Positions 10,914 to 63,157 of a stretch of DNA of 64,000 nt are shown here, in pieces. The DNA is from a virus, in IMG/VR virus record IMGVR_UViG_3300031857_020694, positions 1 through 64,000 of that record; one strand, 5' to 3'. The notes beneath the pieces were generated by a model that worked only from the letters and a program-made list of their open reading frames with translations, had not been told where the DNA came from and ran no database searches. Position numbers and translations under genes: made by a program. Position 1 is the first letter of the stretch, and every line of letters begins with the position of its first letter.

Positions 10914-10914
10914 T

Positions 10915-11103: not shown

Positions 11104-11110
11104 GATAATT

Positions 11111-11794: not shown

Positions 11795-11802
11795 TAAATA
11801 TT

Positions 11803-20523: not shown

Positions 20524-20536
20524 TTTAATCCTTGGG

Positions 20537-20564
20537 GGCGCGGGTAACCCCCGCGCCTTTTTTT
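20537..20564 (+). terminator. Rho-independent terminator
   Basis: An 8-bp GC stem (GGCGCGGG at 20537-20544 with CCCGCGCC at 20550-20557), five-base loop and seven T residues at 20558-20564. It follows the gp2.5-like gene stop by 13 bases. This is one of the strongest GC hairpins in an AT-rich window. The next start codon follows the last T directly. Confidence 0.95.
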
Positions 20565-21653
20565 ATGATACCGATTTATACTCCTTGGATTGCAACAAAT
20601 CAAAAGAAATATGTAAATGAATGTCTAGATACTAACTGGATATCTTCTAGAGGTGGGTTTGTTGAGCGATTTGAGGAAGAATTATCAAAATATTTAAATG
20701 TTAAACACGTATTGACTGTATCTAATGGTACAGTATCTTTACAGCTAATATTAGCTGCGCTTGGGATAGGACATGGTGATGAAGTTCTAGTTCCAGAATT
20801 AACTTATGCTGCCTGCTTTTCTGCCATTCATTGGTCTGGCGCAAAAATTGCAACATTGCCTGTCGATGATAATGGGCAATGCATATCTAATTTAGATATT
20901 ATAAAAAGATATATACAACCAAACACTAAAGCTTTATTATTACCACACCTCTATGGTAATTGTGCAGATGTTGAAGCTATTAGAAGTTTTTGTGAGTTAA
21001 AAAGAATCTATTTAATAGAAGATGCGGCCGAAGCTTTCGGTTGCGCAGTCAATGGACAAAAATTAGGAACTTTTGGTGTCGCTGGGTCTTTTTCTTTTTT
21101 CTCTAATAAAGTTATTACAACTGGAGAAGGCGGGGCGGTAGTCACTAATAATACTAACTTGTATGAAAAAATGAAATTAATGAGGTCTCAAAGCCATGTC
21201 AGCAATTTTTATCATCCAATGCCTGGTTTTAATTTTAGAATGACTAATATACAAGCCGCAATAGGCTGTGCTCAATTAGAAGATATAAATGAAATTGTAT
21301 TTAGGAAAAAAGCAATAGCTGATTTTTATAGACTGTCTTTGGCCGGCCATGTAAAGTATTTTCCTAATAACTGCGAATCGACTGAGTGGATGCCTTTATT
21401 TGTTCATGATAGATATTTTTATGATACTATAAAAGATAAATTAAACAGTAAAGGTATAGATACACGTCCATGTTTTATGCCTCTTAGATCTATGTGTTCT
21501 AGTGATAGTGATATAAAATGGAATTGTAATAAGCAATTTTATGAATCTTATTTTATTACTAGTGTATATCGCAAAGCTTTTAATTTACCATGTTATCCTA
21601 GTATGAGCAGTCAAGATTTATTAAAAGTAGTAGAAGAAGTAAGGAATATATAA
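20565..21653 (+). CDS. DegT/DnrJ/EryC1-type PLP-dependent sugar aminotransferase
   Basis: 362 residues from ATG 20565. Typical DegT family order: IPIYTPWI at the start, WISSRGGFVERFEEEL, TVSNGTVSLQLIL, the PLP-binding Asp in LIEDAAEAFGC and the Schiff-base Lys in FFSNKVITTGEGG. These enzymes transfer an amino group to a keto-sugar nucleotide. It is the first gene after the terminator and has no ribosome binding site, because the terminator T-tract runs into the ATG. With the two SDR enzymes near 28 kb it could make an amino-deoxy sugar. Confidence 0.9.
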   Translation: MIPIYTPWIATNQKKYVNECLDTNWISSRGGFVERFEEELSKYLNVKHVLTVSNGTVSLQLILAALGIGHGDEVLVPELTYAACFSAIHWSGAKIATLPVDDNGQCISNLDIIKRYIQPNTKALLLPHLYGNCADVEAIRSFCELKRIYLIEDAAEAFGCAVNGQKLGTFGVAGSFSFFSNKVITTGEGGAVVTNNTNLYEKMKLMRSQSHVSNFYHPMPGFNFRMTNIQAAIGCAQLEDINEIVFRKKAIADFYRLSLAGHVKYFPNNCESTEWMPLFVHDRYFYDTIKDKLNSKGIDTRPCFMPLRSMCSSDSDIKWNCNKQFYESYFITSVYRKAFNLPCYPSMSSQDLLKVVEEVRNI

Positions 21654-25530: not shown

Positions 25531-26248
25531 GCCAAAAATTGCAGTATGCTCAATGTTTAGAGATTCACAGGTTTGGTTTAATAAACAAACTAATCAAGTA
25601 TACAGATTGTTTTCATCTCTATTAGATCAAACATATGGATTTGAAAATTTACAATGTTATTTTTTAGAGGGTGACTCGTTAGATAACACTAATGAAGTTT
25701 TACAAAATCTTGTAGAAAAATATAGTAATGTAAAACTCTTTAATAAAGAGGCAACATTTAACAGCGTGGTCTCAACCACTAATAAAAATAGAATTAAATC
25801 AATGTCAAATTTAGGTTCGTATTTAATTAACCAAGTGGAAGAAGATTTAATATTTTGGGTAGAATCAGATCTTATTATAAAACCAGATATTATACAAAGA
25901 CTTTATGATAGAATGACTAAAATTCCTGAAAGTGTTAGTTCTGTTATTTCCGCTCCTTGTTATTATGGTAAAGATGGCCAATTTTATGATACTTGGGCCT
26001 ATAGGAATCTAGATGGTTCTAACTGGCGTCCAGATACTAATATGAGAAATTCTGGTATGGTAAAAATGCAGAGCGTTGGTTCTTGCGCGTTAATACGCCG
26101 AGCTAATAATCTCGCTGTTAATTTTGGTGACGGGGCTTTTGTTGAATTGTGTGAACGAGTTAATAATTCTGGTGGAGTTGTATACGCTGATTGCAATCAA
26201 TCGGTAGAGCATCCAAGAAACGAATTCATATCAGGGAGATGGATATGA
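25523..26248 (+). CDS. GT-A glycosyltransferase (GT2/GT62-like)
   Basis: 241 residues. IAVCSMFRDS at the start, SSLLDQTYG, LEGDSLDNTNEVL and a DxD-like acidic motif FWVESDLIIKPD follow the order of GT-A enzymes, with some likeness to the mannosyltransferase group GT62 (Anp1). The later GSCALIRR and DGAFVELCERV also fit. It ends in an ATGA overlap with the GT6 gene. Confidence 0.7.
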   Translation: MAKPKIAVCSMFRDSQVWFNKQTNQVYRLFSSLLDQTYGFENLQCYFLEGDSLDNTNEVLQNLVEKYSNVKLFNKEATFNSVVSTTNKNRIKSMSNLGSYLINQVEEDLIFWVESDLIIKPDIIQRLYDRMTKIPESVSSVISAPCYYGKDGQFYDTWAYRNLDGSNWRPDTNMRNSGMVKMQSVGSCALIRRANNLAVNFGDGAFVELCERVNNSGGVVYADCNQSVEHPRNEFISGRWI

Positions 26249-27000
26249 TAGGTATAATGATAACTGCAACAAATAATTATTTCCCTTTAGGGTTAAGATT
26301 TGTTCATAGATATCTTAGGTTTTCTAAACAGGCAGAAGAAACTTTATTCTTTTTCTTTTCTGAAAAGGATCCTAGTGAATACCTTAAACAGCATGAATCT
26401 ACTAAAGTGATATGGATAAAAACAGAACATAGTAATTGGTTAGAGGGCGTAAATAATAGATTCAAAAATACTATAGATTTTGTTTTTGGAAAAAATATAG
26501 ATTATATATATAATATAGATTCTGACACTAATTTTGATAAAAGTTTTGAATTGCCAAAAGTTAATGGTATTGTGGCTGGTGAACATTTTGGTAATAATAG
26601 CTGGATGAAAGATAGAAAAAATTACGATAGAAATCCTCAATCTATGTCATACGTTCCAGAAAATACTCAATTACCACAAATGTATTATTTGGGCGCGTTT
26701 TGGGGAGGTGAGGTATCAAAAGTAAAAGAGATGTGCGCAACCCTCTATTTTTGGCAAGTGCAAGATAAAACAATTAATTATGAGCCAGGAGTAAATGATG
26801 AAAGTTATTTAAATAAATATCTTCATTATAATCCTCCAAACTATACAATCTTATATAAAGATTTCCCAATGATGATATCTTGTAAAGGGGGAATACAGAA
26901 TATAAGATATAATAATCCTGCCCAAATAGAAAAACTTTTAAAAGATATTAAAATTGCTAATAATTGGAATATATTAAATGGAGTAGTACAACATGATTAA
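26245..27000 (+). CDS. GT6-family glycosyltransferase (ABO/alpha-Gal type)
   Basis: 251 residues from ATG 26245, chosen because AGGGAG lies six bases upstream and the start overlaps the previous stop (ATGA). The metal-binding motif is IDSDTNF (DSD near 92-94). YYLGAFWGGEV, then NYEPGVNDESYLNKYL and a TILYKDF element closely follow the vertebrate and bacterial GT6 layout (G-x-FFGG, W-x-DESHLNKY). GT6 enzymes add alpha-1,3-linked Gal or GalNAc. Bacterial GT6 enzymes usually have NxN at the metal site, while the DxD form here resembles vertebrate and cyanophage members (from memory of the family). Confidence 0.85.
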   Translation: MIGIMITATNNYFPLGLRFVHRYLRFSKQAEETLFFFFSEKDPSEYLKQHESTKVIWIKTEHSNWLEGVNNRFKNTIDFVFGKNIDYIYNIDSDTNFDKSFELPKVNGIVAGEHFGNNSWMKDRKNYDRNPQSMSYVPENTQLPQMYYLGAFWGGEVSKVKEMCATLYFWQVQDKTINYEPGVNDESYLNKYLHYNPPNYTILYKDFPMMISCKGGIQNIRYNNPAQIEKLLKDIKIANNWNILNGVVQHD

Positions 27001-27280
27001 AAAAATATTAAAGTTTTTATCTGAATATTGGCCATTAGCTCTTGGAAGTTTATGTGCTTTATTTTTTGTAGGAGTGTCTATTGCTTTTTATTGTTCTGTA
27101 ATAGCTTTTCAAGACTCTCGAAAAGCGCATAAAAACACACAAAAATTAGAACCTTTTATTGTTCTCGGTCAAGATTTGCGTGGTTATGAAATAAGGAAAG
27201 ATCAAAGCAAATATTGGATTTTTACTAATGGTTCTGGTGAACCTGTAGTTGTAGATGTAACTTACAAGCCGGGGTTTTAA
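26993..27280 (+). CDS. Small membrane protein
   Basis: 95 residues. A hydrophobic segment at about 16-40 (ALGSLCALFFVGVSIAFY) is a clear transmembrane helix, preceded by Lys-rich residues. The C-terminal part is soluble, with short strands. It overlaps the GT6 gene by 8 nt and shares a base with the next start. Function unknown. Confidence 0.6.
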   Translation: MIKKILKFLSEYWPLALGSLCALFFVGVSIAFYCSVIAFQDSRKAHKNTQKLEPFIVLGQDLRGYEIRKDQSKYWIFTNGSGEPVVVDVTYKPGF

Positions 27281-28221
27281 TGAGATTATTTATTACTGGT
27301 GGTAGTGGTTATTTAGGCAAGCACTTAATAAAACACTACTATAATAAAGCAGACATCACTATTTTTTCTAGAGATGAAGCTAAGCAGTTTTTAATTAAGC
27401 AGCAATATCCAGATGTCAAATGCGTACTTGGAGATGTAAGAAATTATGATAGTCTTTTAAGAGCAATGAGACAATATTGGCCTACGCACGCAGTGTTTGC
27501 TGCTTCTATGAAACATATAGATGCTTGTAGAGATAATTATCAAGAAGCTAATGATATTATAGTTAAGGGCGCTTTCAATAGTAGACAAGCTGCTGAAGAA
27601 TGCGGAGTAGATGCTGCATGTTTTATTTCTTCTGATAAAAGTAGAGCAGCGACAACTATTTATGGCTCAATGAAATACACGGCTGGTGAAGCTTTTATTA
27701 CAAATCCAACTGATATGAAAGTTAATACTTTAGTATATGGAAATGTAATGAATAGTACTGGATCTATAATTCCTAAAATTTGGGAGACTATTAGATCTAA
27801 CACCAATAGTTATGGTCGTTATCTATCTTTATATCATTCAGATATGACTAGATTTTTATATGATATTAAAGATGCTGTATCTTTAATTGATTATGCACTA
27901 TCTCCGGAAGCTCCTAATGGAACTACTATGGTGCCATATATCAAAAGTTTTAAAATTATAGATTTATTTAATTTATATACCCAGCAATTTGGCTTGACAT
28001 GGAATCTAAGCTCGCCAAGGCCTGGTGAAAAACTTCACGAAATTCTTATTTCTAAAGAAGAATGGGCTCGGACGACAGAAGATCCTTATAGATCATTATA
28101 TTTTATCCATAATGATTTCCAGAATAAATTAAATTTTGATACAGATTTCTCAAGTAGAGATTATTGTATAAGCAAAACAGAATTAAAAATGTATTTAGAA
28201 CAAAATGGATGGTTTAAATGA
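27280..28221 (+). CDS. NDP-sugar 4,6-dehydratase-like SDR (CapD/FlaA1/CapE type)
   Basis: 313 residues. Extended SDR: NAD(P)-binding TGGSGYLGKH at residues 6-15, the AASMKHIDAC region typical of UDP-GlcNAc 4,6-dehydratases (AAxKH), the SSDKS element and the catalytic YGSMK. The C-terminal RPGEKLHEILIS is also conserved in these enzymes. It would make a keto-deoxy sugar nucleotide. Followed by an RmlD-like reductase with ATGA overlap, the CapE/CapF-like order that leads to deoxy-amino sugars. Confidence 0.85.
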   Translation: MRLFITGGSGYLGKHLIKHYYNKADITIFSRDEAKQFLIKQQYPDVKCVLGDVRNYDSLLRAMRQYWPTHAVFAASMKHIDACRDNYQEANDIIVKGAFNSRQAAEECGVDAACFISSDKSRAATTIYGSMKYTAGEAFITNPTDMKVNTLVYGNVMNSTGSIIPKIWETIRSNTNSYGRYLSLYHSDMTRFLYDIKDAVSLIDYALSPEAPNGTTMVPYIKSFKIIDLFNLYTQQFGLTWNLSSPRPGEKLHEILISKEEWARTTEDPYRSLYFIHNDFQNKLNFDTDFSSRDYCISKTELKMYLEQNGWFK

Positions 28222-29063
28222 AGATATTTATATTCGGCGCGAATGGAATGCTGGGGTCATATTTAAGTAATTTTTTCTCTAACGCAAATGCCGTACCAAT
28301 CACAAGACAAGATATAGATATAACTAAAGTAAATGCAAGATCTATTTCTTCATTTCTTAGAAACCGAGGGCTTAAATATGGAGACGTTGTTATTAATGCT
28401 GCTGGCATAATCAAACAACGCAAGTCAACGCCCGAGGAAATGTTTTTAGTTAATACCGTATTTCCTAAATATTTATCTGACATCTGCACAAAACTTGGGT
28501 CCAAAAATATACATATCTCTACTGATTGTGTATTTAGTGGTTTAGACAATAGTGTATATATGGAATCAGATTACCCTACTCCTAATGATTATTATGGTTT
28601 TACAAAATATGCTGGTGAACAGCATAATGTAACTTTAATCAGAACCTCAATAATTGGTGAAGATAAGACTGGCTTAAGTTTATTAGGCTGGGCGCGCAAA
28701 AACGCAGGTAAAGAGATAGACGGTTATATTAATCATTATTGGAATGGTTTAACTTGTTTAGAGTTGTGTAAGTATATAGATTGTTTATTAATAAAAGATA
28801 GGTTATTTACTGGTTTACAGCATGTGGCTACTAGCATAAAAATAAGTAAATATGAATTATTAAATATATATAACGAAGTATTTGATTTAGGATTAACTAT
28901 CAAACCACTTCATGCTACCTATACTTGTGATAGATCATTATGGTCTATGAAAGAGAATACTTATGATAATATTGTTTATATTAAAAACGATTATCACCAG
29001 CAAATGAAAGAACTTAAAGATGCGAAAAATATTTATAGTGACTTCGGTCATAGAGGCATCTAA
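28218..29063 (+). CDS. RmlD-like NDP-keto-sugar reductase
   Basis: 281 residues. SDR with IFGANGMLGSYL at residues 5-16, VINAAGIIKQ, STDCVFSG and the catalytic YYGFTKYAGE. These match dTDP-4-dehydrorhamnose reductase and CapF-type reductases. It would reduce the product of the dehydratase encoded just upstream. The last 44 nt overlap the next gene. Confidence 0.82.
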   Translation: MKIFIFGANGMLGSYLSNFFSNANAVPITRQDIDITKVNARSISSFLRNRGLKYGDVVINAAGIIKQRKSTPEEMFLVNTVFPKYLSDICTKLGSKNIHISTDCVFSGLDNSVYMESDYPTPNDYYGFTKYAGEQHNVTLIRTSIIGEDKTGLSLLGWARKNAGKEIDGYINHYWNGLTCLELCKYIDCLLIKDRLFTGLQHVATSIKISKYELLNIYNEVFDLGLTIKPLHATYTCDRSLWSMKENTYDNIVYIKNDYHQQMKELKDAKNIYSDFGHRGI

Positions 29064-29978: not shown

Positions 29979-30316
29979 TAATAAAACCAATTATAAACTA
30001 GAAAAGTTAATAATATAGCTTGACATAGAGCTAGTGCATTAATTATTGTAAATGCATATTTTGGATTTAAATAAAGAATCCATCTCACGATTCCTAGTAC
30101 AAGTATCGTCATAAACACTTTTATTGCTACGAACCGTGAAACGTCCCATTCATCACAATGTAGAATTAAACGAGCTATTGGATTAAGCTCATATTCTGGT
30201 AAATTATCACAATATTTAATTGTTAAATATACGTCTACAGAACTAACAAAACCTATGAAAAGCCAGCATAGATAAAACCAAACACATTTAATTTTGTCTG
30301 AGTATTTTTTCAGCAT
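29978..30316 (-). CDS. Small integral membrane protein
   Basis: 112 residues with three likely transmembrane helices (about 11-30, 62-82 and 88-110) and a loop containing ELNPIARLIL. The 29 nt at its start overlap the end of the glycosyltransferase gene upstream. It belongs to the tail-end of the leftward operon. Function unknown; size and topology would allow a holin, but there is no lysozyme neighbour to support that. Confidence 0.6.
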   Translation of the reverse strand: MLKKYSDKIKCVWFYLCWLFIGFVSSVDVYLTIKYCDNLPEYELNPIARLILHCDEWDVSRFVAIKVFMTILVLGIVRWILYLNPKYAFTIINALALCQAILLTFLVYNWFY

Positions 30317-32015
30317 TTTTTATAGCTCTTTTAACTACTAGACGCGCTCCAGCCCTAATAAATGGCAGTTTGCGCCTATCTGCTTCGCTCTTTAACCAAT
30401 CTAAAATAGTTTCTATATTATTATTACACCATTCGCAGCCATTAATATTCATCATGGCGGCATATCTATTGCATGAGCAGTTAGGTGTAGCTTCTATTCC
30501 AAACATTTTAAGAACTTTTTTCAACTCAGTACCGGGCCCGATTTGAGGGTCCCATAAATAAATTGGTTTGGTTGGCCTATCTTCTTTCTGTTTAGAAAGC
30601 ATTAATTGGCCAGAACCTTCAGAGTTTATTTCTGCAATAAACCACTCTGGATTCGCATCTACCCATTTCTTCACGTAAGCAATAAACTCAACTCCACCAG
30701 AAGTGTAGTTATTGAATATAATTCTCTTTTGAGCCGAAGGTCCGGCCGCAGCTAAAAATGTATATAGATTAGTTTTATCCATTCCTAGTAATAATAGTAC
30801 ATCTACAGGTTCGATTTTCTGAGGGCGTTTAAAACCAAATCTTAAATCTATTAGATTATCTTTTGGTTTAATATTTTCAATACGCTCTATACTATTAGTA
30901 TAAATCCAGTAAGTATCTGGTTTAGCTACTACTACAGGGATAGAATAATCTACAGTATCTCCAAACTCGCATACTGTTTTCATACCATCTATCTTTGATT
31001 TTAACCAAGCAAGTTCTGGCCTGTTTTTAGATATTATATCATAGGCTTCTTCTAAAGTTAAAGGTGTTTTAGATTTGGTTTCCATTAATAATTTTTCCCA
31101 ATCCATTTCTTTAAATAAACCAGAACCAACAAAATGTTCTTTAACGGGTGTTAAATCTAACCCAAGCTCAGTGAAGCCAAGAATATAATTTCTTACTTTA
31201 TTTTCTCTAGTTAGAGGATATTTAACTCCGCCCGGACGACCAAATCTATGCAACCATCTTAAAAATGGTAAACATATAGCTTTATGGCCTGCTTTTCTGA
31301 ACTTCTCATGGATATAACCCTCTTCACCACCAAATCCGCGCATATCAGGATTAAACCCAAGCCACGCATGCTTCATACAAGTGAATAGACCTAATCCTTG
31401 TGCGGGAATTTCAAAAGGCTCTTCGTTGGGATCAGTAGCAAGTTCTTGATTAAACGTAAGTTTTTCTCCACAACTACATTTATTATCAACTATAGTTTGA
31501 GGGTTTAACTCCATAGTACAAGCTTGGCCTTCATTATTCTTACTATAAATAACGCCGCATTTGCATTTATACGCACTACCCCAAGTGCCCCACATTTCAC
31601 TTCGCCAATATAAATTAAAGTGAGTGGCATAATTTTTTAAATTATCATAAAGCATTGGTCCAGAATATAAATTTTTAGTTTCTGGATCAGCGGTGTAAAA
31701 TTCTATTAGTTTTTTAATAGCTTCTTTATCTAATAGAACATGACAGTCAATACATAGAACTGCATCGCCACTAGCTTCTTCAAACACCCTTTGTCTAGTT
31801 TGCGTAGTGCCGGTGCTTTCTTTCATTGCTATGTATTTAGCATTTGGCACCCAGCCCATAAATGATTTTACTGATTGGCCATGTGGCGAATCAGGAGAAT
31901 TGTCAACCACTATAATTTCTACATCATTCAATTCATGATGCATTCTAAGTGATTGAATTGTAAAATAAACGCCGTCAAAATCCTCAAAATGAGCCATTCC
32001 AATTGTTAGTTTCAT
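30288..32015 (-). CDS. GT2/GT27-like glycosyltransferase with zinc ribbon and Cys-rich tail
   Basis: 575 residues. The N-terminal 260 residues form a GT-A domain: IIVVDNSPDS, a DXH metal motif (DCH, residues 90-92), GLGLFTCMKHAW, then RGFGGEEGYIHEKF and a His in RWLHRFG. DXH with GG-E and a following C-terminal His is the layout of polypeptide GalNAc-transferases (GT27), although general GT2 remains possible. A CxC/CxC zinc ribbon (CKCG near 151, CSCG near 180) is inserted between them. The C-terminus holds CSCNRYAAMM and CEWCNNN, a module seen in other phage proteins. It is directly downstream of a mucin-like Thr-rich gene. Confidence 0.75.
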   Translation of the reverse strand: MKLTIGMAHFEDFDGVYFTIQSLRMHHELNDVEIIVVDNSPDSPHGQSVKSFMGWVPNAKYIAMKESTGTTQTRQRVFEEASGDAVLCIDCHVLLDKEAIKKLIEFYTADPETKNLYSGPMLYDNLKNYATHFNLYWRSEMWGTWGSAYKCKCGVIYSKNNEGQACTMELNPQTIVDNKCSCGEKLTFNQELATDPNEEPFEIPAQGLGLFTCMKHAWLGFNPDMRGFGGEEGYIHEKFRKAGHKAICLPFLRWLHRFGRPGGVKYPLTRENKVRNYILGFTELGLDLTPVKEHFVGSGLFKEMDWEKLLMETKSKTPLTLEEAYDIISKNRPELAWLKSKIDGMKTVCEFGDTVDYSIPVVVAKPDTYWIYTNSIERIENIKPKDNLIDLRFGFKRPQKIEPVDVLLLLGMDKTNLYTFLAAAGPSAQKRIIFNNYTSGGVEFIAYVKKWVDANPEWFIAEINSEGSGQLMLSKQKEDRPTKPIYLWDPQIGPGTELKKVLKMFGIEATPNCSCNRYAAMMNINGCEWCNNNIETILDWLKSEADRRKLPFIRAGARLVVKRAIKNAEKILRQN

Positions 32016-32052
32016 AATATCCTCTATCTTTTATCTTAAAACACTATCTTGT

Positions 32053-34908
32053 TTATGGAGGGGTTGTAGTGGTTGTAGTAGGAGTCGCGCATGGTAGGCT
32101 TGAAGGCCCTTCACAAGGCGATCCAATTACTCCGTATGGACACAGGCATTGAATTAATGTGCCAGCTACGCAATTACTGCTATCCAAATAATATTGATTA
32201 AATTCATTACATAAATAATTACATGATCCTGTACATGGTCCGTAACACACATCACAATCTGTTGCTGCTCCTTGCCATATACCTCCATTAGCTATACAGT
32301 TAGCTTCAGTAGTTTGTGTACAGCTATCTACTGGATAACCACAACAAGCGCCTTCTGGACCAGCTGTAGTGGTTGTAGTAGGAGCGGCTGTTGTAGTAGT
32401 GGTAGGTGCCGCAGTTGTTGTCGTGGTTGTAGTAGTTGTAGTTGTAGTTGCTGGAGGTTCTCCCGCGCATTCTGGATCTATAGCCCCAGAACAAGTTTCG
32501 CCTTCTGTCCAAGTACCAGATACTAAATTACAATGCGCCTCAGAGACATATTGACAATTATCTGTTGTCCAAGGAAGATTATAACAACATCTTCCACAAG
32601 GTGGTGGGCAACTTTCAACACAAGTTTCTCCTGGGTGCCATGCTCCACTAACAGCATTACATTGTGCTAATGTATAACCTTCAATACATTCTCCACATTC
32701 ACCAGCTAAAACAATGTTAAAACAACAAGCGCCAGTAGGTGCTGAGGTTGTTGTTGTGCTTGTTGTAGTACTATTAGTAGTATCGCATCTAAAATATAAG
32801 CTTTGTGCTGGAAAACACGGTCCTCTAGCGTCTGGACAAGGACATCCTACATCACAAGTATCAGAACTTTTAACCCAAACTCCAGCCCAGCAAAAATAGT
32901 AACAACCTCCATTACAAGGAGCTGAAGTAGTGCTAGTAGTAGTTGAATTACAGCATTCCCAACAAGGATCTGGAGTCGTAGTCGGTTCAAGAGTGGTTGT
33001 AGTATTTAACGGTATACATGGACTAAAAGTTTTTACACAATCTTGTAACTCAGTTGGTTGTGGACAATAACACCTGTCACCATTAGGCGCTGGCGATGCA
33101 CAATTTTGCACTGACAAGCAAATACCATAGCCAGGAATTTTTAACCACATGCAACCACCACCACAGCCTGGAGGCGCTATAGTTGTTGTAGTAGTAGCCG
33201 GTAATCTGTCACAGTCTGAAGTGTATGTATCACAAAAATCATTAGGTACACGATCAGGAGGTGTACATGTACATAGTTCAGTAGTTAAACCACCTATAGG
33301 ACAATCATTATGTACAACGGCCCATGTTCTACCAGTATACCAACAATCTATATAAACCCATTCGCAATTTCCCTCGCATGGAGCTTCTGTTGTTGTTGTA
33401 GTAGTACTACCAGGATGAATAGTGGTAGTTGTTGTTGTATAACTTCCACAGTCACATGGTGGACATGTAGTAGTAGTACAATTAGGAGGCTCGCCTGGAT
33501 TATATTCTGTACAAGATGTTGTAGTTTTTTGTCCAGTAAAAGTGGGACAGAATATTGGTTGAACACATTCACAATCACCAGGTGCTGGTGTAGTTGTAGT
33601 AGTGCTAGTTGTACTAGTAGTTGTTGTTTGTGATGGATTACAATCTATAGTAGTAGTTGTAGTACTAGTGGTTGTTGGCCCATCTGTTGTTGTAGTAGTA
33701 GTGCTAGTAGTTGTAGTACTTGTAGTAGTTGTAGTGGTGCCTTCACCACATGTATCACTTAATAATGTCCATGTTTTTCCATCATTAGATATCCATTCAC
33801 AAGAGCCTGTGCATTTAGTTGGATATACTGGTGATAGTGTTGTTGTTGTGGTAGTTGACTCTATAGTTTCATAGCCATTTAATACCCAATACTCACAAGC
33901 ATCAGTATCCCAATAGCAGATGACATGATCGCCGCCTTCATAAGCCTCATTTGTTTTGTTATTTACAACTATATTATTAGTACTATCTAAATAAATAGTG
34001 TTTCCATCACTGTCCCATAATGCAGAGCCTTTATCTTGATAAGCATTAGCTGAGCCGCCTACAGCCAAATCTTCTTTAAGAGTCGCGCTAATCATTTTAT
34101 AAGCAGGTCTAGCAGTCCAAACTCTTCTGCTTCTATCCCACACTAAATCTACCGGGCCTACTGGCCAAGTTTTTGATTTTTTAAGCCAATTATCTAAGAA
34201 CTGATCTTTTAAATTTTGTGTAGTAAATATACCGCTTTCGGCATCTTCTTCTGTATCAGAAGCATTTGGCACTGGTTTTCCATCTGTATCATAACCCCAT
34301 CCTTGAATAACCATTGGGCCTTTAAAAGCGAAAAATCTATAATCTTCAGAATACGGATCTCCACTATTTAATTCTGTTACTATAGATGAAATATGGCTGT
34401 TAATTCCTGTATCAGCGTCCCCATCTCTAGCTATAATATCAAAATCATGGCCGCTTTGATATCCATAAGTAAAATCTGCTGGATTGGTTAGCGGGTTTAA
34501 ATAATCAGCAGTGATTAGTATATCATAACTAGATAAACTTCCACTATCATAAGTAATAGGCGGTTGAGCGCCTCTAGGAGCGTGTTGCGAGCAATTTTCG
34601 CATTCAATTGGTTGAGCAAATCTAGGAAGCCCGCCACTACCGTGTAAAGATACTGGCCTAAAAATGCCATCTAATGACATTGCGGCTTTTTCATCCCAGT
34701 CTGAAGCCATTTCCTCTCTTAAAGTCGAGGCGTTTGCTATAACTACAGTAGCCGCGTCTTCTGTTTGGCCAGTATCTCTAGGGTTCCATATGCCTATAAT
34801 AACTTCACTATAGGCTAATGGCGAGCGTTGTGTGCTTTTATTTTCTCGATTTCTTCTATCGTGCGGTTTATTGCCGCCTTTTGTGAAATCATTAAACCCT
34901 TTACTCAC
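32053..34908 (-). CDS. Thr-rich, Cys-rich mucin-like virion protein
   Basis: 951 residues in a mosaic. About residues 1-350 form a folded N-terminal domain (IIGIWNPRD, LITADYLN, VIQGWGYD), probably the virion anchor. After this, poly-Thr/Ser tracts alternate with Cys-rich modules of two kinds: type A, C-x-G-x-C-x-W with a later C-x-CP; and type B, GACC with CN-x-x-x-G-x-W-x-x-G-x-x-C. Roughly eight modules are visible, and the protein ends in another Thr tract. Thr/Ser tracts between disulfide-rich modules resemble mucins. It lies at the end of the tail-tip genes and is likely a fibre or adhesin. Confidence 0.75.
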   Translation of the reverse strand: MSKGFNDFTKGGNKPHDRRNRENKSTQRSPLAYSEVIIGIWNPRDTGQTEDAATVVIANASTLREEMASDWDEKAAMSLDGIFRPVSLHGSGGLPRFAQPIECENCSQHAPRGAQPPITYDSGSLSSYDILITADYLNPLTNPADFTYGYQSGHDFDIIARDGDADTGINSHISSIVTELNSGDPYSEDYRFFAFKGPMVIQGWGYDTDGKPVPNASDTEEDAESGIFTTQNLKDQFLDNWLKKSKTWPVGPVDLVWDRSRRVWTARPAYKMISATLKEDLAVGGSANAYQDKGSALWDSDGNTIYLDSTNNIVVNNKTNEAYEGGDHVICYWDTDACEYWVLNGYETIESTTTTTTLSPVYPTKCTGSCEWISNDGKTWTLLSDTCGEGTTTTTTSTTTTSTTTTTTDGPTTTSTTTTTIDCNPSQTTTTSTTSTTTTTPAPGDCECVQPIFCPTFTGQKTTTSCTEYNPGEPPNCTTTTCPPCDCGSYTTTTTTIHPGSTTTTTTEAPCEGNCEWVYIDCWYTGRTWAVVHNDCPIGGLTTELCTCTPPDRVPNDFCDTYTSDCDRLPATTTTTIAPPGCGGGCMWLKIPGYGICLSVQNCASPAPNGDRCYCPQPTELQDCVKTFSPCIPLNTTTTLEPTTTPDPCWECCNSTTTSTTSAPCNGGCYYFCWAGVWVKSSDTCDVGCPCPDARGPCFPAQSLYFRCDTTNSTTTSTTTTSAPTGACCFNIVLAGECGECIEGYTLAQCNAVSGAWHPGETCVESCPPPCGRCCYNLPWTTDNCQYVSEAHCNLVSGTWTEGETCSGAIDPECAGEPPATTTTTTTTTTTTAAPTTTTTAAPTTTTTAGPEGACCGYPVDSCTQTTEANCIANGGIWQGAATDCDVCYGPCTGSCNYLCNEFNQYYLDSSNCVAGTLIQCLCPYGVIGSPCEGPSSLPCATPTTTTTTPP

Positions 34909-37679
34909 TATTTCTGCCCTGTACCAAATTTATTGAATAATTCTTGTCTTATATTTCCTATCTCTTTAACTCTATCTATTTTAGCTTTAGCGAAACGTCT
35001 AAAGCCTTTAGTATAAAGTTGGAAAACATAAGTGGTGGTAATGCCATCAGCACCGTAATTAATATTCATACTAGATATAATAGGTCCTAAAGTACCGGTC
35101 CATCCTACGGCCATTAAATCTACTGTACCCCAAGTTATTCCTGGAAAACTTAAAGAACTATTAGAAGTCATTGTCCTAGTGGCTATAATTCTCTGGCCCG
35201 CAATATAGCCAGAACCATTAAAAGCCATCATTTCCTCGCCTAATCTTCCTTTTGGTATCCCCGGAACTGTTATTGTTCCACTTTGACTCTTATACATTGT
35301 AGATACACCAAAAGTGACTTGGTCCAAGGCAGCAGCATTCAAAGCTGTCATACTCCCAAAATTCCATGGAGTTAAGCTATAATCGCTATTTACAGCTGTT
35401 GGGCCAGAGCCGTTGCCAAAATACCAAGGTCCATAAACTTCTTCATTATTAGTTAAAGCAACTGTCGCTGCGCTAGGAGTTCTTGGTCTACGAGCGCTCC
35501 ATAAACTAACTGTAGAACCGCCAACACTTCTAACGCTTGGGTCTGCTTCTTGCTGAGCTTGTCTTAATATTGGGTTTGTGCCATCTATAACTTTACCATT
35601 TCTATTCCATAAATCGAATTGACCTTTTTCATTTATGGATTGCGGCAATTCTATAACTACTCTTGGGTCTGTTAAATTAGCAGCATCTCCAAACACGAAC
35701 TGAGATTGTGTAGAGCATTTAGCCCATAAAATACCGTAATTGCCAGAATTAAAGTCTACATAACCATATTGGTCTTCATCTAAATTTTTAAAATCTATAG
35801 TTTGACCACTATCATATCTGACAAATGGCCTAATTCTACCATCGCCCAATCTAAAGAAATCCATAGCTACAGAAGTAGTGTCTATACCTAATAAATTAAA
35901 AAACTCAGTTCCACTATCTTCATTCCAACCGCCATCAGATACACTTCTACTAAAAGTAATTTCTCCAGTATCAGGGTCTCTTTTAGCACATAGCCAAGGT
36001 ATTCTTACTTGGAACTTTTTACCATAATAATTTGATGCTAAATCTAAAACCCAGTTATACAATAAGTCTTCATCATTTTCTATAAGATTTTGTAAATCTT
36101 GGGCTGTTTTTACTTTCTTTAAATTTAAATAATGAAAGGGTTTTAGTATTTGATTTGCTACCGCTGGGCTATTATTCATTACGGTCATCCAATGAGCCAT
36201 ATCCCATAAACCTAATTGTGAGGTAGCATTACCTACAGAATGAACTGCTCTCAATAACTGCGCGGTTGGCCTATTATGAGTAAAAACATAACTTTTCCAA
36301 GACTCTTCTCCATCTAAAGCAGCTATTAGTTCATATTCTTCTAACTCTATATAATCTGGCACGTTCAATACTACTGTTTGATATTTTAAGGCTGCAGTAT
36401 TAGCATCAAAATATACAGTAACAGGATCTGAAGTCATAGTTTTGGCGTCTAAATTCAAATCAACACCATTTGGTGTACACCAATCTATTCCACGACTCAT
36501 TAACACATTACCATTATTATCTAGACCCCAATAAGGTTGTATAAAATCATCACTTAAATCATAATTGTATATATCTACTTCTTCAAACTCTTGAGTTGTA
36601 GGATTCCAATACTCTCCAGTTGTTTCAGAATAACCATTTGTCCCGCGCACATTTTCAACATAATACATTTGCTCTTTTCTAGGACCAAGTGTAAAATTAT
36701 TAAAAGTGCCAATTCTTAATTCTTCCCCTACATTGGCAGATATTCTTCCGCACCCGCTATTATAAGAATCTAAAAATTGCGCAAGGGTATAGCTAGTGAT
36801 TGGGCCAGTTCTATCTATAGTTCTTATTTTTATAAATTTATAGACAGTATTATCTTCACATACAGGAATTAGTTCTACCATAAACTCCATACCAGCATCT
36901 TCAATCACTTGAGAAATCATATCCCCAAGTATTGCTGATTGCCCCTCAAATCTATAATAATCTGGAGCTATAGGCACCTCTGATATATCTAATATATATC
37001 CTACATCATCTTCTCTTATTAAACCAAAACCACCACTTAGCCCAGGGATGAATTTAATTCTATTATTTTGTAAAAAATTAGATGTTGGAATTGATCCAGT
37101 ATTAGCAACTAACCCACTAAGTAACACTACAGCGGTTCTAATCTTTACCCAAGGCATGCCTTTACCATAATTAGACGCGCCACCAAAAGACGCGCACGCC
37201 TGATATTCCCATAGCCCATAAGCATTAATAACATTAGGAACTGTAAAAGTGCCACCTTTATAATCATCTAAAATAACAGAGATGGAATTTAGTATATCTG
37301 TTGGGGCAGAAATATCTACAGTATAAATATTTAAACCGCCTGTACTATCATCTTTACTTACTTTTTGCACTATTCCTGAAAATTCAAAATCTCCATGTTT
37401 AAAGCAAACAGGGACGCCAATAAGATTCTGAGACTCGCCAATAAAACCTGGGTCAGCACCTGTCCACTCTTGTGTTTGAAAACATTCATCTAAATATAAT
37501 TTAGGTAAATTTTCTGGACATACCGCTTTTGGATCTTCAACTAATACTACTGTTACGTTACCGCCTCCACCGAGCGCTTGCATGTCACCAGAAAAGCTTT
37601 TAACACTCAATCCTAAAAACAACCACTGGCGCGGGCATGAATCCGCACACGGCGTACAATTTACATAAGGTCCAGGCAT
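34908..37679 (-). CDS. Tail-tip (hub or distal tail) structural protein
   Basis: 923 residues, mostly beta-rich, without signal peptide. Position after the tape measure and another tail protein, and just before the mucin-like protein, indicates a tail-tip component. The N-terminus is Cys-rich (CTPCADSC). It has a Tyr/Asn-rich central region and a C-terminal basic segment (FRRFAKAKIDRVKEI). The single-base overlap with the next start (34908) indicates coupling. No enzymatic motif was recognised. Confidence 0.6.
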   Translation of the reverse strand: MPGPYVNCTPCADSCPRQWLFLGLSVKSFSGDMQALGGGGNVTVVLVEDPKAVCPENLPKLYLDECFQTQEWTGADPGFIGESQNLIGVPVCFKHGDFEFSGIVQKVSKDDSTGGLNIYTVDISAPTDILNSISVILDDYKGGTFTVPNVINAYGLWEYQACASFGGASNYGKGMPWVKIRTAVVLLSGLVANTGSIPTSNFLQNNRIKFIPGLSGGFGLIREDDVGYILDISEVPIAPDYYRFEGQSAILGDMISQVIEDAGMEFMVELIPVCEDNTVYKFIKIRTIDRTGPITSYTLAQFLDSYNSGCGRISANVGEELRIGTFNNFTLGPRKEQMYYVENVRGTNGYSETTGEYWNPTTQEFEEVDIYNYDLSDDFIQPYWGLDNNGNVLMSRGIDWCTPNGVDLNLDAKTMTSDPVTVYFDANTAALKYQTVVLNVPDYIELEEYELIAALDGEESWKSYVFTHNRPTAQLLRAVHSVGNATSQLGLWDMAHWMTVMNNSPAVANQILKPFHYLNLKKVKTAQDLQNLIENDEDLLYNWVLDLASNYYGKKFQVRIPWLCAKRDPDTGEITFSRSVSDGGWNEDSGTEFFNLLGIDTTSVAMDFFRLGDGRIRPFVRYDSGQTIDFKNLDEDQYGYVDFNSGNYGILWAKCSTQSQFVFGDAANLTDPRVVIELPQSINEKGQFDLWNRNGKVIDGTNPILRQAQQEADPSVRSVGGSTVSLWSARRPRTPSAATVALTNNEEVYGPWYFGNGSGPTAVNSDYSLTPWNFGSMTALNAAALDQVTFGVSTMYKSQSGTITVPGIPKGRLGEEMMAFNGSGYIAGQRIIATRTMTSNSSLSFPGITWGTVDLMAVGWTGTLGPIISSMNINYGADGITTTYVFQLYTKGFRRFAKAKIDRVKEIGNIRQELFNKFGTGQK

Positions 37680-39183: not shown

Positions 39184-42100
39184 TTAACTTAGTTTTGAAT
39201 AATTCATATTATTTGCGGTGGCAAAATCACTCAAAGCTTTATCTACTACGCTTTGGACGCTAGCTAAGACTGCATCATTTGCCCCGCCTCCTCCGCCTCC
39301 AGTAACAGCTCCAGTAACAGTAACATTTCCTTCTATATTAACTTTAGCAGAAGCTAGTAAACTGGCCGCTTTTTCAAAAGTTTGAGCGGCTGCTATAGCT
39401 GGTTCAAAATTAATACTACCAAAATCAATTTTACCTAATTGTTGTACGCTTTCGTTGAGACTATTAAACGCGTTTGATATATCAGTGATTACTTGTTTAT
39501 CTTGGTCATTAAAGTATTGAGCCGCTTCTTCATTAGTTTTTAAAGCTTTTTCTAATTGATCTTTTTCTGGAGCGGTCGCGGCAACCTCATCTGTTCTTAA
39601 AGCAAGTTCGCTAATTTTTTTACCTTCGAACTCATAACCACTAGTATCTACACCTAATCTTTCGGTAGCCTTACCAAACTTATCTAAAGCTCTTCTAGCT
39701 TTTCTAGCCTGTCTAGAATCTCCACTTTGCTCTGCATTAGCTAGTTGTTCTTCTAAACGTTTCTTGATTTCACCTCTGTCAATATCAGATAAATTACTAA
39801 TATTTCCACCGGCTTGGAATTGTTGTAATGAAGCATCTCCACGAGCATCAGCAGTCCCTAAAAGAACTTGCTTTTCTAATTCTTCAGCTTTTTTAGGATC
39901 TTTCTGTCTTTCATTCTCAATTGCTGCAGATAAACTACCTCTTTCTTCTTCTGTTAATTGACTGTAGTTTATTTGTCCAGTTTCTAAAGCTTTAAGTGCC
40001 TGCTGTCTTTTTTGTATTTGCTCTCTTTGTTGGTCTGAACCTAAAGCAAATTCCAGAGCTCCCTTTCTATCAACCGCTCTTGCTCTTAGTCTCTCTTCAA
40101 ATTTAGTTAAAGCTAAAGCCGCATCTGCTGTATTAGTACTTAATACATTCATTGCCGCATCAACTGCTTTTATCTCAGTTGTAAGATTTGCCATCTCTTG
40201 CTGAGCATTTTTATTATTTATATCTAATTCATTTCTACGCTCTTCAAGTTTACTCTTTCTGTCTGTAAGTTCTTGAACAGAATAGTCTTGTCCAGTAGAT
40301 TTATTAACACCTACTAAGTTTCTAACTTCTTGATTTTTTAAATCTACTTGTCGAGCTGCTAAATCAGTTGCTGTTGCTCCACTTAATGAGGCGTACTGAT
40401 CTCTAAATTGAGCTGATTGTCTAACTGGATTAAATCTATTCTTTCTAGCTGTTAAACGAGCATCTGAATACTGATTCATTAATTGGACGCGCTGTCCAGT
40501 TAATTGATCTGCTGCTTGTGCTGCTTGTAATACTGTACCTTGATCTTCTGAAACTGTATCGTCAATAACTTTTTGAAAATCGCCAACTCTAAGTTTATCA
40601 GCGACTACATCTTCATTAGTACTTGTATTTCCAAGAATAGTTTGACTAAAACCTTCTCTTAATTTTTGGGCTTTTGTTGAATCATTTTCTAAATTTCTAG
40701 ATATAAAATTTTCTAAAACTTTTTTAGATGCGGATGTTACATCACGACCGCTTGTTCCAATTTCTTTTTGGACTAAATCATTAAAATTCTGGCCAAAATC
40801 TTGTACTGTCCCAACTTCATCTGCCAATTTAGCCACTCTACTACCTTTACCAAAAACACTTTTAAGTTGTTCTTGGGCTTTATCTTTTGTAGCTTGGTCA
40901 TAACCACCTCTATTACCTAATACTTGAGCTATGTTTGTAGCTCTACCAGCAGATGTTAAATCCCCAGTTCTTCTTGCTTGCGCCTGCTCTTGAAAATTAG
41001 CTATATTAAAACTTGAGGCGTCAGTAATAGCTTGAATTTTTGGAGCTATACTTTTTCTATTGTAAAATTCTTGTTCAGTTAAATCTTGTACTTTATCAGA
41101 AGATTGTTTTAATTGATTATCTATATCAAGTTGTTTTAGTCCAAGATTATTTCTATTTTCTAATTCTTTCTTTGTGGAATCAAATGTATCTGCATATTTA
41201 TTATATCTTTGTCTCTTAATTTTTTTAGTTTTACCAGTGCTAGGGTCAAAAAAATCAAATTCATCTTCTCTAGATGTAAATTTTTTAATTAATTCATCTG
41301 TAGACAATTCTTGATTTTCTGCTTGCGATCTAAACGCGTCAAAAGCTGCTACGCCTTCAGTGCCTATATTGCCAAAAAATTCACTTTGTAATTGCAATTT
41401 ATCTACAGAGCCTACTCGCTCTTCTGCTTTTTTTAATCTTTCTTGATCTCTTACACTAAAACTGGCGCTGCCTTGCGTAAATCTTTTCTTTCTAAGAAGA
41501 GCTATTTCATTTCTATCGACATCAGCTTGTCGTGTTAGTTCTGGCAACTGCTCATCTAATTTACCAATATAGTCTCCAGTGATTTGTTTCGCAATACCAA
41601 TATCTTCATCTCTGCTTTCATAATATCTTTCTAAAGCTCTATCTGAATAACTTTTCCCCCGTCCAACACCAGTTAAATTTGAAAAAGCGGTAGTATATGT
41701 ACTTCCAGAAAGAGGATTAACAAAATCTTTTACTTGTTGTATAGCTATCCCAGTATCATCTAAAACATCATTTTTAGTAGTAAAGGATAAATCCGCTCCT
41801 AGTTGTCCAGTATTTAATAGCGCTTGTTGTAATTGATTTTTATCATAGGAGGCTCCTGGAATACCTATATCAAAACCAAATGTTTCTTTATAATTATTAG
41901 CACTCCCACTTCTAGAAAAATTATCAAATTGTTTCTGTAAGCCGCCATAATTACGATCTTTAACACTAGTCGTAATTTGATCAGCAAGCTGTGTTTTTTG
42001 TAAATCTTGTTGTCTTTTAATAGCTTGATTTCTTAATTCAAAAATACTTATCCCAGCACCAGCTATTCCACCAGCTATTGCGCCGGGTATACCGGCGAAT

Positions 42101-45100
42101 TGTGAACCAGTAGCTATACCACCGCCAATATTAGCAATTACAGATCCTGCTCCAGATATATATTGGTTTTCTGATGATGCTAGCACTGAACCAAGTGTAG
42201 TTGCTGCTAAACCACCTATGCCAACTTTTTGTAATCTGGCTTGTCTACGCAATTCCATACCTTGTCTTTTTTTCGCAACCGCTTTGGCTTGGCTTCTAGC
42301 TTGTTTCCTAGTTTTTTTATCGCCTTCTCCACTAGATAAAAATTCTAATGCGGCCTGCTCTTCGGCTATATCGCTATCGCTAAGTTTTTCTGACATAACT
42401 CCAGACTTAATAGCCGCCCCAGCTCTTAATAAAGCGCCTCTAATCCTTCCAGGTTTTTTATTTTTTGAACTTCTTATATCATCTAGACTAGCCATACTAT
42501 TAAAGATTGGAGATGAACTAGCTCTAACATCCGCGTATGGATCGTCGGCTAATGCAGCTCTTTTTGCTGTTGTACCGCTTTGATCTTCTATTTTACTTAA
42601 TTGCTCTGCAGCTTTTGCAGCTTTTTCTTGCGAAATAGTTGTTGTTTTTGTTTGTTCAGATAGAACTTGGAAAAATTTTGTAGTATCCGCACTTACACCT
42701 TGTAATTTAGATAAAGATATAGTGCCTTTTTGTACAGCGCTGGCAAACTCTTTAATATTATTAATGCCTGCTTTATTTAGTTCAGACCTGTTTGCTTTAA
42801 AAATTTGAGCAATATTATTTCTTAAATCTTCATTCCCGCCACCAATAACATTATTATTAGCGTCTCTTTGTATAGGAGCTAATTGAGATCTTAGCATATT
42901 TAATTTGCCTTGATCCATATCACTAACTTGTTGAGCTGCTATACTTGCAGATCTTGCTTCGTCTTCAGCATTAGCTAATTGGCCAGCATCTAAATAAGAT
43001 TGAGCTCTTCCTGCGCTATAATCTCTGAAAGCTTCTGTTTTTTGCTTTCTTGTTAATGTATATGTATTTAGAAACTGTTGTCTGTTTAATAATTTTTGTT
43101 CTTTTGCTTCTACATCAGATAACTGTTTTAATAATGGGGCTTTTTGTTGTTGATTGCGAACTTGTTGAAATGTACTATTTTTACCTGACGGAGGATTGGC
43201 TGCGTCTATAGCATCTATTTGCTGCTGCAAAGATTCTTTTTGCTTTCCTGTTTTAGATAGAGCTTTTTCTACTCTTTTTTTCTCTTCATTATTAATAACA
43301 TCTCTATTCAATGCTCCCATAGCTTTGTTAGCATTTATTGATGTGGCTCTTCTTTCACCTTCTTCTTTTACTAATCTAATGCCAAGTTCTGTGATTCTTT
43401 CTCTATTGCCTCTTATATTTGGATCTAGTTTTTCAGCTAGCCGTAAAGTTTTTTCTTCTATTGTATCATAAAAATCTAGGAATTTTTGTTCTGCTTTCGC
43501 TACTTTTTCTTTAGAAGCTCCGCTTGCTTTTAATTGTTCCGCCTCTTTTAATAAATTATCAGCTGCGAATCTTAAAGCTTGATTATATTTACTTAAAGCT
43601 TTTGATTGACCTGTTGTAATACTAGTTGTTAAATTTTCTACTGCTTTACCAAACTCTTTATTAGTTTCTAGAAATGTAGCTATTCCTTCAATTCTTGGAA
43701 TTTGGCTAACATCTTCCATAGCTCTTTTAGCATACTTTTCTCTTTCTGGTTGAAAATAACTTCCATAGTCTTTCACTGTTGCTTTATCTATATTTAAAGC
43801 ATGCGCCATTTCATGAGGAATTGTGTTATTATCCTCATAATAAAATTTATTTTTTTTGTTAAGGCCTATAGCATTACCATTTCTTACTGCGTAACCGACT
43901 CTATTTTGTGGTTTTGTGGCTACTTCTGCTGCGGGGATTGCGGCTATGCCAGCGGCCATCATATTCATTTCATCAATATTTGGCACCTTCCTACCAGTAG
44001 TTAAGAGGCTCATCATATTTTTGAAAAGGCCGCCCTTAGCCATTCTTCTAACTCTACCACCCCTTAACATATTTGAGGCTCTCTTATTTAATACATAAGA
44101 GCCTTCTGCTAAGAATGTTGGAAAGCTATCTGTATTTCCAGAACCTGGAACTGTTTTTAATCCTTGTCTATTTAATCTCTCTAAATTAGGAAGTCCTATT
44201 TGCTTAACTTCTTCTGGACTAAATACAATTTCTCCAGGCATGAGCATTGCATTAACATAGCCGCCGCGAGCGTAGCCCATATAATCATCATCATCACCAT
44301 AATCAACCGTTCTTCTTTTCCTTTTAGTTTTATTATAAATTTCATCTACCATATCTGATGGCACAACAGGAGGTCTACCTAGAAATTTATCCATAAAAGG
44401 AATAGCGCTAACTACACCTGCCTGCCTGCGTGTAATTAAATCACTTGGGTTCTGCCCTCTCAAAATTGAAGCAGTTCCTTGAAGCACATTATATGCTTTT
44501 GGTGCTAAAATACTACCAACACCAGCAGCAAAACCAATTTGAAGTGTTGGGCTTAAAGTATCTATTAAAAATGTAACTGCTTGTGTTACACTTCTAATTT
44601 GATCAAGCATTATTTTAAAACCACTGCTCTCAGCAATTTTTGTACCGAAAGCTGCTAAATCCTGTCCTATTTTTGTTATTTTGACAGATAAGGATTCTGA
44701 TGCTAATTCTGCATCTTTAGCTAAAGAATTATCGCCTTTTCTTGCTTCAGCTAGCGCTTCATAAGCATCTGCTACACCAGTAATAAGAGGTATGGCAATT
44801 TTAGCTTGTCTTACGCCACCACCGATAGCATTAGCTACTTCAATATATGTCGCAGTATTAGAACCTACATCTTGTAATGCTTTATTTAATTTAAGGGCCG
44901 CTTCTAATGTTCCAATAAATTCTCCTCTAGTATCTCTAAGAGAGAGATTTGCCCCTAATATTTCTTGTACTTTTTTTTCAACTGATGGGTCTTGTAATCT
45001 ATTTATGACAGTTCTTAAACCAGTAGATATAACAGTATCTGGCAAACGTGTTGTGCTACGAATACTGGTGGTTATTGCAGCAAATTTTCTTAATGTGTCT

Positions 45101-63134: not shown

Positions 63135-63157
63135 TCCTATTTATTATATTATAAACC
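63135..63157 (-). promoter_or_regulatory. Putative late promoter, fibre region
   Basis: Minus strand contains GGTTTATAATATAATAAATAG. It shares GGT-x-TATAAT with the element before the major tail gene. It overlaps the stop codon of the collagen-like fibre gene and lies 8-30 bases before the start at 63127. A second overlapping TATAAT is present. Confidence 0.5.

Follow-up and report, generated by a model that had tools for sequence, protein, structure and literature searches.

What does a phage-encoded glycosyltransferase (GT) act on when its gene directly follows a gene for a protein filled with long threonine tracts? This arrangement occurs in IMG/VR virus record IMGVR_UViG_3300031857_020694 (65,561 bp), nearly all of which is covered by the window, meaning here the whole 64,000-nucleotide (nt) stretch that we analyzed. 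On the minus strand, a tail block encodes, in order, a tape-measure protein, a 497-amino-acid (aa) protein, a 923-aa protein, a 951-aa Thr/Cys-rich protein, and a 575-aa GT. We propose that the last two genes probably constitute a cassette, in which a poly-Thr acceptor protein of the tail region is paired with a dedicated downstream GT that O-glycosylates its Thr tracts. An initial annotation had described a Thr/Ser-tract protein followed by a GT with a DXH motif and had interpreted the pair as a candidate mucin-type glycosylation system that would give a mucin-like tail adhesin. The two open reading frames (ORFs), 12 Thr runs, and a spacing of 37 bp bear out that description, and the interpretation is supported in part. 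The features of the block are as follows.

39184..46011, minus strand: tape-measure protein, 2275 aa (PF10145, PhageMin_Tail, 7.8e-14)
34908..37679, minus strand: 923-aa tail-region protein, directly 5' of the 951-aa protein (28% identity over 184 residues, E 1e-12, in a related phage)
32053..34908, minus strand: Thr/Cys-rich tail-region protein, 951 aa, GTG start, the proposed acceptor (ORF, composition, shuffles, codon mix)
33874..34908, minus strand: N-terminal domain of the 951-aa protein, about residues 1 to 345 (matches in two related phages)
32053..33873, minus strand: Thr tracts alternating with Cys-bearing modules, with a C-terminal TTTTTTPP (sequence)
32016..32052, minus strand: 37-bp spacer between the Thr/Cys gene and the GT gene (sequence)
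30288..32015, minus strand: GT, 575 aa, with a GT-A domain, a middle domain, and a C-terminal Cys-bearing module (ORF; PF00535, 4.2e-12; AlphaFold; PDB matches)
31062..32015, minus strand: GT-A domain, residues 1 to 318 (predicted fold nearest to polypeptide GalNAc-transferases)
31740..31748, minus strand: DXH motif, D90-C91-H92 (alignment; phmmer pairing with DSH of GALNT10)
31320..31337, minus strand: GFGGEE motif, residues 227 to 232 (phmmer pairing with the WGGE stretch of GALNT10)
31248..31250, minus strand: H256, candidate third metal ligand (phmmer pairing with the His of GALNT10 GHIYRK)
30291..30524, minus strand: C-terminal module, about residues 498 to 575 (identity to separate proteins of 43% over 77 residues and 47% over 73 residues)

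The 951-aa protein contains 172 Thr and 71 Cys, of which 149 Thr and 67 Cys fall in the 606-residue part made of tracts and modules. Thr occurs in tracts of five residues or longer 12 times, whereas 2,000 shuffles of the protein's own residues averaged 0.15 such tracts and never gave more than 3, and all 13 matches to a pattern of six Thr codons in the whole 65.6-kb record lie inside this one gene. Within runs of at least four Thr, the codons are mixed (42 ACT, 40 ACA, 10 ACC, and 1 ACG), and adjacent codons are identical in 30 of 76 cases, compared with 40% expected by chance. This mixture led us to reject a microsatellite origin of the tracts and makes selection at the protein level likelier than repeat slippage. 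A Pfam search with the protein returned nothing useful (Eclosion, 0.94, regarded as chance). We infer that the product is a virion protein because its gene is the third after the tape-measure gene and because a related phage encodes a portion of the N-terminal domain in the same frame as the preceding tail protein. In the spacer behind it, a ribosome-binding-like AGAGG precedes the GT start, and no terminator-like sites were listed.

In tblastn searches of 50,697 phage records, the GT and the 923-aa protein had no match at E 1e-3, and the N terminus of the 951-aa protein had none at E 1e-2; therefore, annotation could not be transferred from cultured phages. A PHROGs search of the GT and the Thr protein found nothing at 0.01. 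A 128-kb contig (L001) encodes a GT 100% identical to that of the window, and copies of the window (L001, L029, and L121) were removed ahead of all counts.

A pattern drawn from the N-terminal domain of the 951-aa protein recovered one copy of the window and two further viruses (L403 and L404), which have open frames of 1963 and 1727 aa, respectively. Parts of the domain match within the 1727- and 1963-aa frames at E 1.7e-36 and 5.3e-33. In an 1844-aa stretch of L403, the C-terminal part of the 923-aa protein is matched (28% identity over 184 residues, E 1e-12), followed further on by residues 189 to 289 of the 951-aa protein (52% over 101 residues, E 6e-33); by eye, the layout of L404 is similar. 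The longest Thr run in the parts of these frames that we read is two. Across the full records, 160 and 93 kb in length, no stretch of six consecutive Thr codons occurs, and the GT profile has no match. In both phages, the block ends with a free-standing protein (174 and 161 aa) that corresponds to the C-terminal module of the window GT (L408:4306-4830 and L409:3557-4042; 43% identity over 77 residues and 47% over 73 residues). Thus, the GT and the Thr tracts are jointly present in the lineage of the window and jointly absent in two relatives. The module was also tried as a marker of Thr-linked GTs and rejected, as a regular expression for it matched only the window's own copies; this expression would miss the separate-protein versions in the two related phages.

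Motifs and predicted fold of the glycosyltransferase

Pfam places the 575-aa protein in GT family 2 (PF00535, 4.2e-12). We collected viral relatives with a pattern for GFGGEEGYIHEKF, which occurred in at least 119 viral stretches, and built an alignment of 64 rows comprising the window, 61 sequences picked by this pattern, and two picked by their Thr codons. No substitutions occur at D90, H92, or H256 across the alignment, and we take these residues to be candidate metal ligands. GFGGEE is also invariant, but 61 of the 63 other rows were selected by a pattern that requires GFGGEE, so this invariance is uninformative. A phmmer search of the single sequence against the PDB matched human GALNT10 (E 2.1e-4, the sum of two weak pieces with i-E 0.38 and 5), pairing D90-x-H92 with DSH, GGEE with GGE, and H256 with a later His.

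Polypeptide GalNAc-transferases (ppGalNAc-Ts), which form CAZy family GT27, initiate mucin-type O-glycosylation in animals. Their Gal/GalNAc-T motif is WGGE(N), and a C-terminal ricin-type lectin domain is common among them. The initial annotation had recognized a GT27-like motif layout in the window GT, of which DXH, GGE, and the later His pair with GALNT10. Phe replaces the Trp of WGGE while GGE is retained. The family profile misses GT27, and a Pfam search to E 1 found no lectin domain in a protein whose C-terminal part is modeled in large measure at low confidence.

We predicted the structure with AlphaFold2 from the 64-row alignment (overall mean 73.7; predicted template modeling score 0.58). 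The model is confident over most of residues 1 to 310 (10-residue block means of 77 to 98, with 53 to 67 at residues 151 to 190); past residue 310, confidence falls to 67 and lower and partly rises again. All 50 matches listed by Foldseek against the PDB, out of 447 with E up to 0.001, are GT27 chains. After realignment of Foldseek's 1000 best chains with VIA-align 2, the top 29 entries are again all GT27, with Z scores of 20.5 to 25.1. The best match, 6nqt_F, aligns over 258 residues at 2.7 A with 16% identity (Z 25.1), while the first structures outside GT27 are chondroitin polymerase 2z86 (Z 19.5), RmlT (Z 19.3), and then others. The fold search suggested in the initial annotation therefore puts GT27 first by a margin. 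On the basis of the model, it is a fair guess that the enzyme works like a ppGalNAc-T, and it may belong to GT27.

Genomic linkage in viral and bacterial relatives

We asked how often relatives of the GT lie next to Thr-tract genes. Gene calling followed a plain greedy rule. From the first count onward, a gene qualified as a Thr-tract gene if its product had six or more consecutive Thr or if 11 or more of 20 residues were Thr. The 119 matches listed, which include the window and exclude its copies, contain 18 loci without a called upstream gene. In the remaining 101 loci, the upstream gene carries a PD-(D/E)XK nuclease motif in 71, is a Thr-tract gene in 14, and is something else in 16; PF12705 was matched by all four upstream nucleases tested. 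We then clustered the GTs at 90% identity and excluded clusters without a called upstream gene (5 of 64 viral and 5 of 76 bacterial). Among the matches listed, a same-strand Thr-tract gene lies directly upstream in 13/59 viral clusters compared with 1.64 expected from the share of Thr-tract genes in those loci (17 of 800 genes), a value that 0 of 20,000 simulations reached, and a Thr-tract gene lies downstream in 0/61. The survey of phages proposed in the initial annotation thus yields a linkage that is confined to the upstream side. The distance from the Thr-tract gene to the GT ranges from -70 to 44 bp. The 14 Thr-tract partners range from 134 to 1353 aa and have dissimilar ends, and 7 of them have a tail rich in Thr and Pro.

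We examined the distribution of linkage on a FastTree tree of 145 members, in which 49 of 142 inner branches are starred. Among viral rows with a known upstream gene, 15 of 63 are Thr-linked, which calls for 7 label changes, at least 6 of them forced by starred branches; with bacterial rows included, 21 of 135 are Thr-linked and the number of changes is 13. Label changes here are gains or losses. The nearest relative of the window GT on the tree, L099, is also Thr-linked.

In the reverse direction, we searched for ten Thr codons, which recovered at least 120 viral stretches, kept those genes whose products have eight or more consecutive Thr, and considered their same-strand neighbors within 300 bp (58 downstream and 68 upstream). 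Among the matches listed, downstream neighbors belong to the family of the window GT in 2/58 cases and to a second GT family in 9/58, and upstream neighbors to either family in 0/68. One more downstream neighbor (L197) is GT4-like (PF13692, 2.4e-4, below the Pfam cut-off). In a Pfam search of the upstream neighbors, with 25 of 30 families listed, there was one match to Glycos_transf_2 and one to Glyco_tranf_2_3, possibly in one protein. Fisher P values for downstream versus upstream are 1e-4 (11 versus 0), 6e-4 (12 versus 1), and 3e-3 (12 versus 2), depending on which of these are counted. As a separate observation, the gene following one Thr-tract gene on a 113-kb viral contig encodes a BKACE-family enzyme (L192:3909-4775; PF05853, 2.9e-77).

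Members of the second GT family (L123, L142, L155, L163, L173, L188, L195, L209, and L217) are approximately 300 aa long and have no GT match in Pfam. A model with a mean predicted local distance difference test score of 93.3 gave a GT8-type fold in a PDB search (glycogenin, Z 15.3; LgtC, Z 15.0). A kinship with plant hydroxyproline arabinosyltransferases, suggested by recall only, was dropped, as the PDB search gave GT8/GT24-type folds. For 80 relatives (L242 to L321, the best 80 of 573) chosen by GT sequence alone, a Thr-tract gene lies directly upstream in 48/58 clusters compared with 8.7 expected, and downstream in 1/57. Part of this linkage reflects shared descent, because the family was found through Thr tracts and its nearest relatives were sampled. 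The window record contains no match to this family.

For comparison, we used another GT of the window, a single family with a narrower sample.

58074..59699, minus strand: comparison GT, Glycos_transf_1 fused to a methyltransferase (PF00534, 1.6e-15; PF13489, 5.4e-9; phrog_3408)

Its relatives, the best 80 of 149, are all at least 69% identical, and 1 of 45 clusters was dropped for lack of a called upstream gene. A Thr-tract gene lies upstream in 0/44 clusters and downstream in 0/43. Because its loci are without any Thr-tract gene, this family cannot test direction; it shows just that Thr-tract genes do not adjoin every phage GT.

A genome scan provided bacterial relatives of the window GT (L322 to L401, the best 80 of 101 stretches), of which 77 have ORFs longer than 400 aa. 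We scanned 71 of the 80 ORFs against NCBIfam, excluding nine longer than 1000 aa, and took matches to E 1e-3, many of them likely below the NCBIfam cut-offs. Within the same ORF, we found HprK-related kinase A in 25 (best E 5e-29), PqqD in 6 (2.9e-9), and GalE, a UDP-glucose 4-epimerase, in 2 (7.4e-95); in these last two bacterial members, the fused GalE is a hint that the donor could be UDP-Gal or UDP-GalNAc. PqqD-like genes also lie near GT relatives in some bacterial loci, and the window GT itself has no match to HprK or PqqD. The D and H of DXH are invariant in the 71 bacterial members, with DSH as the consensus. A short protein with a W..P...PAHA motif is encoded within 3 kb in 27/80 bacterial loci and solely beyond 3 kb in 0/80, within the flanks examined. 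Its tail contains TTT in 25 of the 27, most of these proteins have a tail of Thr and Pro, and some of these proteins have more than 15 consecutive Thr. The motif is absent from two sets of 122 and 120 viral loci.

Competing explanations and known glycosylation systems

Several results weigh against the proposed cassette or limit its reach. Most sampled viral relatives adjoin a nuclease gene (71/101) rather than a Thr-tract gene, which tells against the wording of the initial annotation. A run of eight Thr codons is present in only 13 of 36 GT-bearing viral records, a count that we do not use as support: the records were selected mainly for length, without a matched control, and the pattern misses the Thr-linked L044 and L072, whose longest run is seven. 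Together, these two counts indicate that the GT family has other acceptors or roles as well. Clusters defined at 90% identity are still related by common descent, and the joint absence of GT and Thr tracts comes from a small number of phages, two, whose records are possibly incomplete. Direct upstream linkage in bacteria is weak (6/71 clusters compared with 1.73 expected; 91 of 20,000 simulations as high), and a Thr-tract gene lies downstream in 2/69. The loci of the comparison GT contain 0 Thr-tract genes among 454. Finally, the profile of the GT family matches 0 GT27 chains in the PDB at 1e-3, where its sole match is a probable beta-1,3-GlcNAc-transferase.

The GT might instead use a non-protein acceptor, such as a host surface polysaccharide, a lipid-linked sugar, or phage DNA, and owe its position to a tail-operon end that is friendly to insertions. 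The PD-(D/E)XK neighbors of most sampled viral relatives and the further GT and nucleotide-sugar genes of the window fit this explanation, as do the DNA or host-surface roles proposed for phage GTs in other papers (PMC12619734, PMC10202952). However, an insertion-friendly site would leave unexplained why Thr-tract genes lie upstream of two differently folded GT families, compared with 0/44 clusters for the comparison GT, and why Thr-bearing tails occur in proteins encoded close to the bacterial members; we consider this explanation unlikely. A little less likely again is a GT that modifies virion proteins away from the Thr tracts, for example on the Cys-rich modules or the capsid in the manner of mycobacteriophage GTs. 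Enzymes acting on capsid and tail tube are described (PMC12619734, PMC12363180), yet the partners in the 14 Thr-linked loci differ in length and ends, and their common feature, judged by eye rather than by alignment, is the Thr tracts. The tracts could also be unmodified low-complexity linkers or by-products of repeat expansion, with the linkage due to chance or shared ancestry. No recognized GT lies next to most Thr-tract genes (46/58 downstream neighbors, by the tests used and among the matches listed), as such an explanation would have it, but the mixed Thr codons, the direction-specific adjacency in two GT families, and the several label changes on the tree make it very improbable.

Mycobacteriophages provide a described case of virion glycosylation. 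PMC12619734 and PMC12363180, citing Freeman et al. 2023, report it in Che8, Corndog, and Myrna, with the C termini of capsid and tail-tube proteins as the GT targets. The systems are alike in having a phage-encoded GT and, as we propose here, a structural protein of the phage itself as the target, and they differ in that the proposed targets here are poly-Thr tracts. In a search of three proteins, Che8 gp108 to gp110 did not match either GT family profile (best E 0.031 and 0.12). The initial annotation had named no described phage system of this kind. Phage-encoded virion glycosylation as such is already known from mycobacteriophages; among the open-licence PMC papers listed, we found no report of a poly-Thr phage protein with an adjacent GT, and the poly-Thr cassette appears to be a new form of such glycosylation.

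Resemblance to GT27 rests on the predicted GT-A fold as top match, the alignment of DXH, GGE, and a later His with GALNT10, and the Thr-rich partner. The window GT differs from GT27 in its low identity in structural alignments (12 to 19%), in carrying Phe where WGGE has Trp, in a profile without a GT27 match, and in the ricin-type lectin domain, which Pfam did not find to E 1. GT8/glycogenin-like enzymes share their fold with the second Thr-linked family and are a parallel case rather than the window enzyme. In bacterial clusters, HprK-related or PqqD parts are fused to some GT relatives, unlike in the window GT, which has neither; a limited search of open-licence PMC papers returned none on these gene clusters.

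If the cassette reading is correct, the mechanism that we infer, including the peptide acceptor, the O-linkage, the sugar, the location in the virion, and the effect on the virion, would be as follows. Both the Thr protein and the GT would be expressed from the same strand. The GT, acting in the cytoplasm, would take a nucleotide sugar, by resemblance only UDP-HexNAc or UDP-hexose, with a divalent metal presumably bound by D90, H92, and H256, and would place a first sugar on Thr hydroxyls in the tracts of its neighbor. Further phage or host enzymes may extend this sugar. The glycosylated tracts would then act as rigid, hydrated spacers that resist proteases and connect the Cys-rich modules, either at the tail tip or close to it.

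We are evenly divided on whether the cassette represents a widespread mucin-like class in phages and bacteria. Such a class would combine a poly-Thr surface or tail protein with an adjacent O-glycosyltransferase, would have recruited at least two enzyme folds (ppGalNAc-T-like and GT8/glycogenin-like), might use HprK-like or PqqD-like parts in bacteria to select the acceptor peptide, and would be the equivalent, in prokaryotes and viruses, of mucin-type O-glycosylation. The proposal assigns a role that can be tested to two unexplained features that recur in viral metagenomes, the Thr-tract proteins and their neighboring GTs. If it is true, uncultured phages bear mucin-like glycoproteins, probably located on the tail, which would affect adsorption, attachment to mucus or polysaccharide, resistance to proteases, and evasion of defenses. 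The GTs are also compact candidates for enzymes that O-glycosylate Thr-rich peptides, and the proposal raises the question of whether the enzymes that initiate mucin-type glycosylation in animals have prokaryotic or viral kin.

Other glycan genes and further genes of the window

The initial annotation had listed a GT6 enzyme and two sulfotransferases, alongside several other GTs and methyltransferases, among enzymes that might extend or sulfate the glycan. The GT6 assignment is confirmed by Pfam, as is one of the sulfotransferases; the other has a weak match.

26239..27000, plus strand: GT6-family glycosyltransferase, possible extender (PF03414, 2.8e-16)
20532..21653, plus strand: DegT/DnrJ sugar aminotransferase (PF01041, 7.2e-90)
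27280..28221, plus strand: CapD-like NAD-dependent nucleotide-sugar enzyme (PF02719, 3.3e-44)
28218..29063, plus strand: RmlD-like nucleotide-sugar reductase (PF04321, 3.4e-23)
60077..60889, minus strand: sulfotransferase (PF13469, 2.1e-14)
60931..61506, minus strand: weak sulfotransferase-like protein (PF03567, 9.3e-4, below the curated cut-off)

Together with the other GTs, these enzymes could make or decorate a glycan. The sulfotransferase genes lie approximately 25 kb from the Thr-protein cassette and near a gene for a collagen-like protein. That gene, which runs from window positions 63144-64000 to the end of the record (L410), is open, encodes a Gly-X-Thr repeat protein of at least 805 aa, and is two genes from the gene with the weak sulfotransferase match; the Thr residues of the repeat protein might likewise accept O-glycans.

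The window carries its own PD-(D/E)XK nuclease gene (4373-6289, plus strand; PF12705, 4.9e-17), of the type usually found upstream of the GT in other viruses. It is apparently split by an intein, with matches to LAGLIDADG_3 (6.6e-6) and Intein_splicing (1.6e-5, below the cut-off). A lipid desaturase domain gene (53851-54384, minus strand; PF10520, 1.4e-31) is unexpected in a phage; we take PF10520 to be the domain of plasmanylethanolamine desaturases. DNA polymerase III alpha is encoded in two ORFs at 9309-13290 on the plus strand (9309-10913, PF07733, 5.6e-66; 11767-13290, PF17657, 7.5e-37), and an exonuclease-like ORF (PF00929, 8.2e-7) lies between them.

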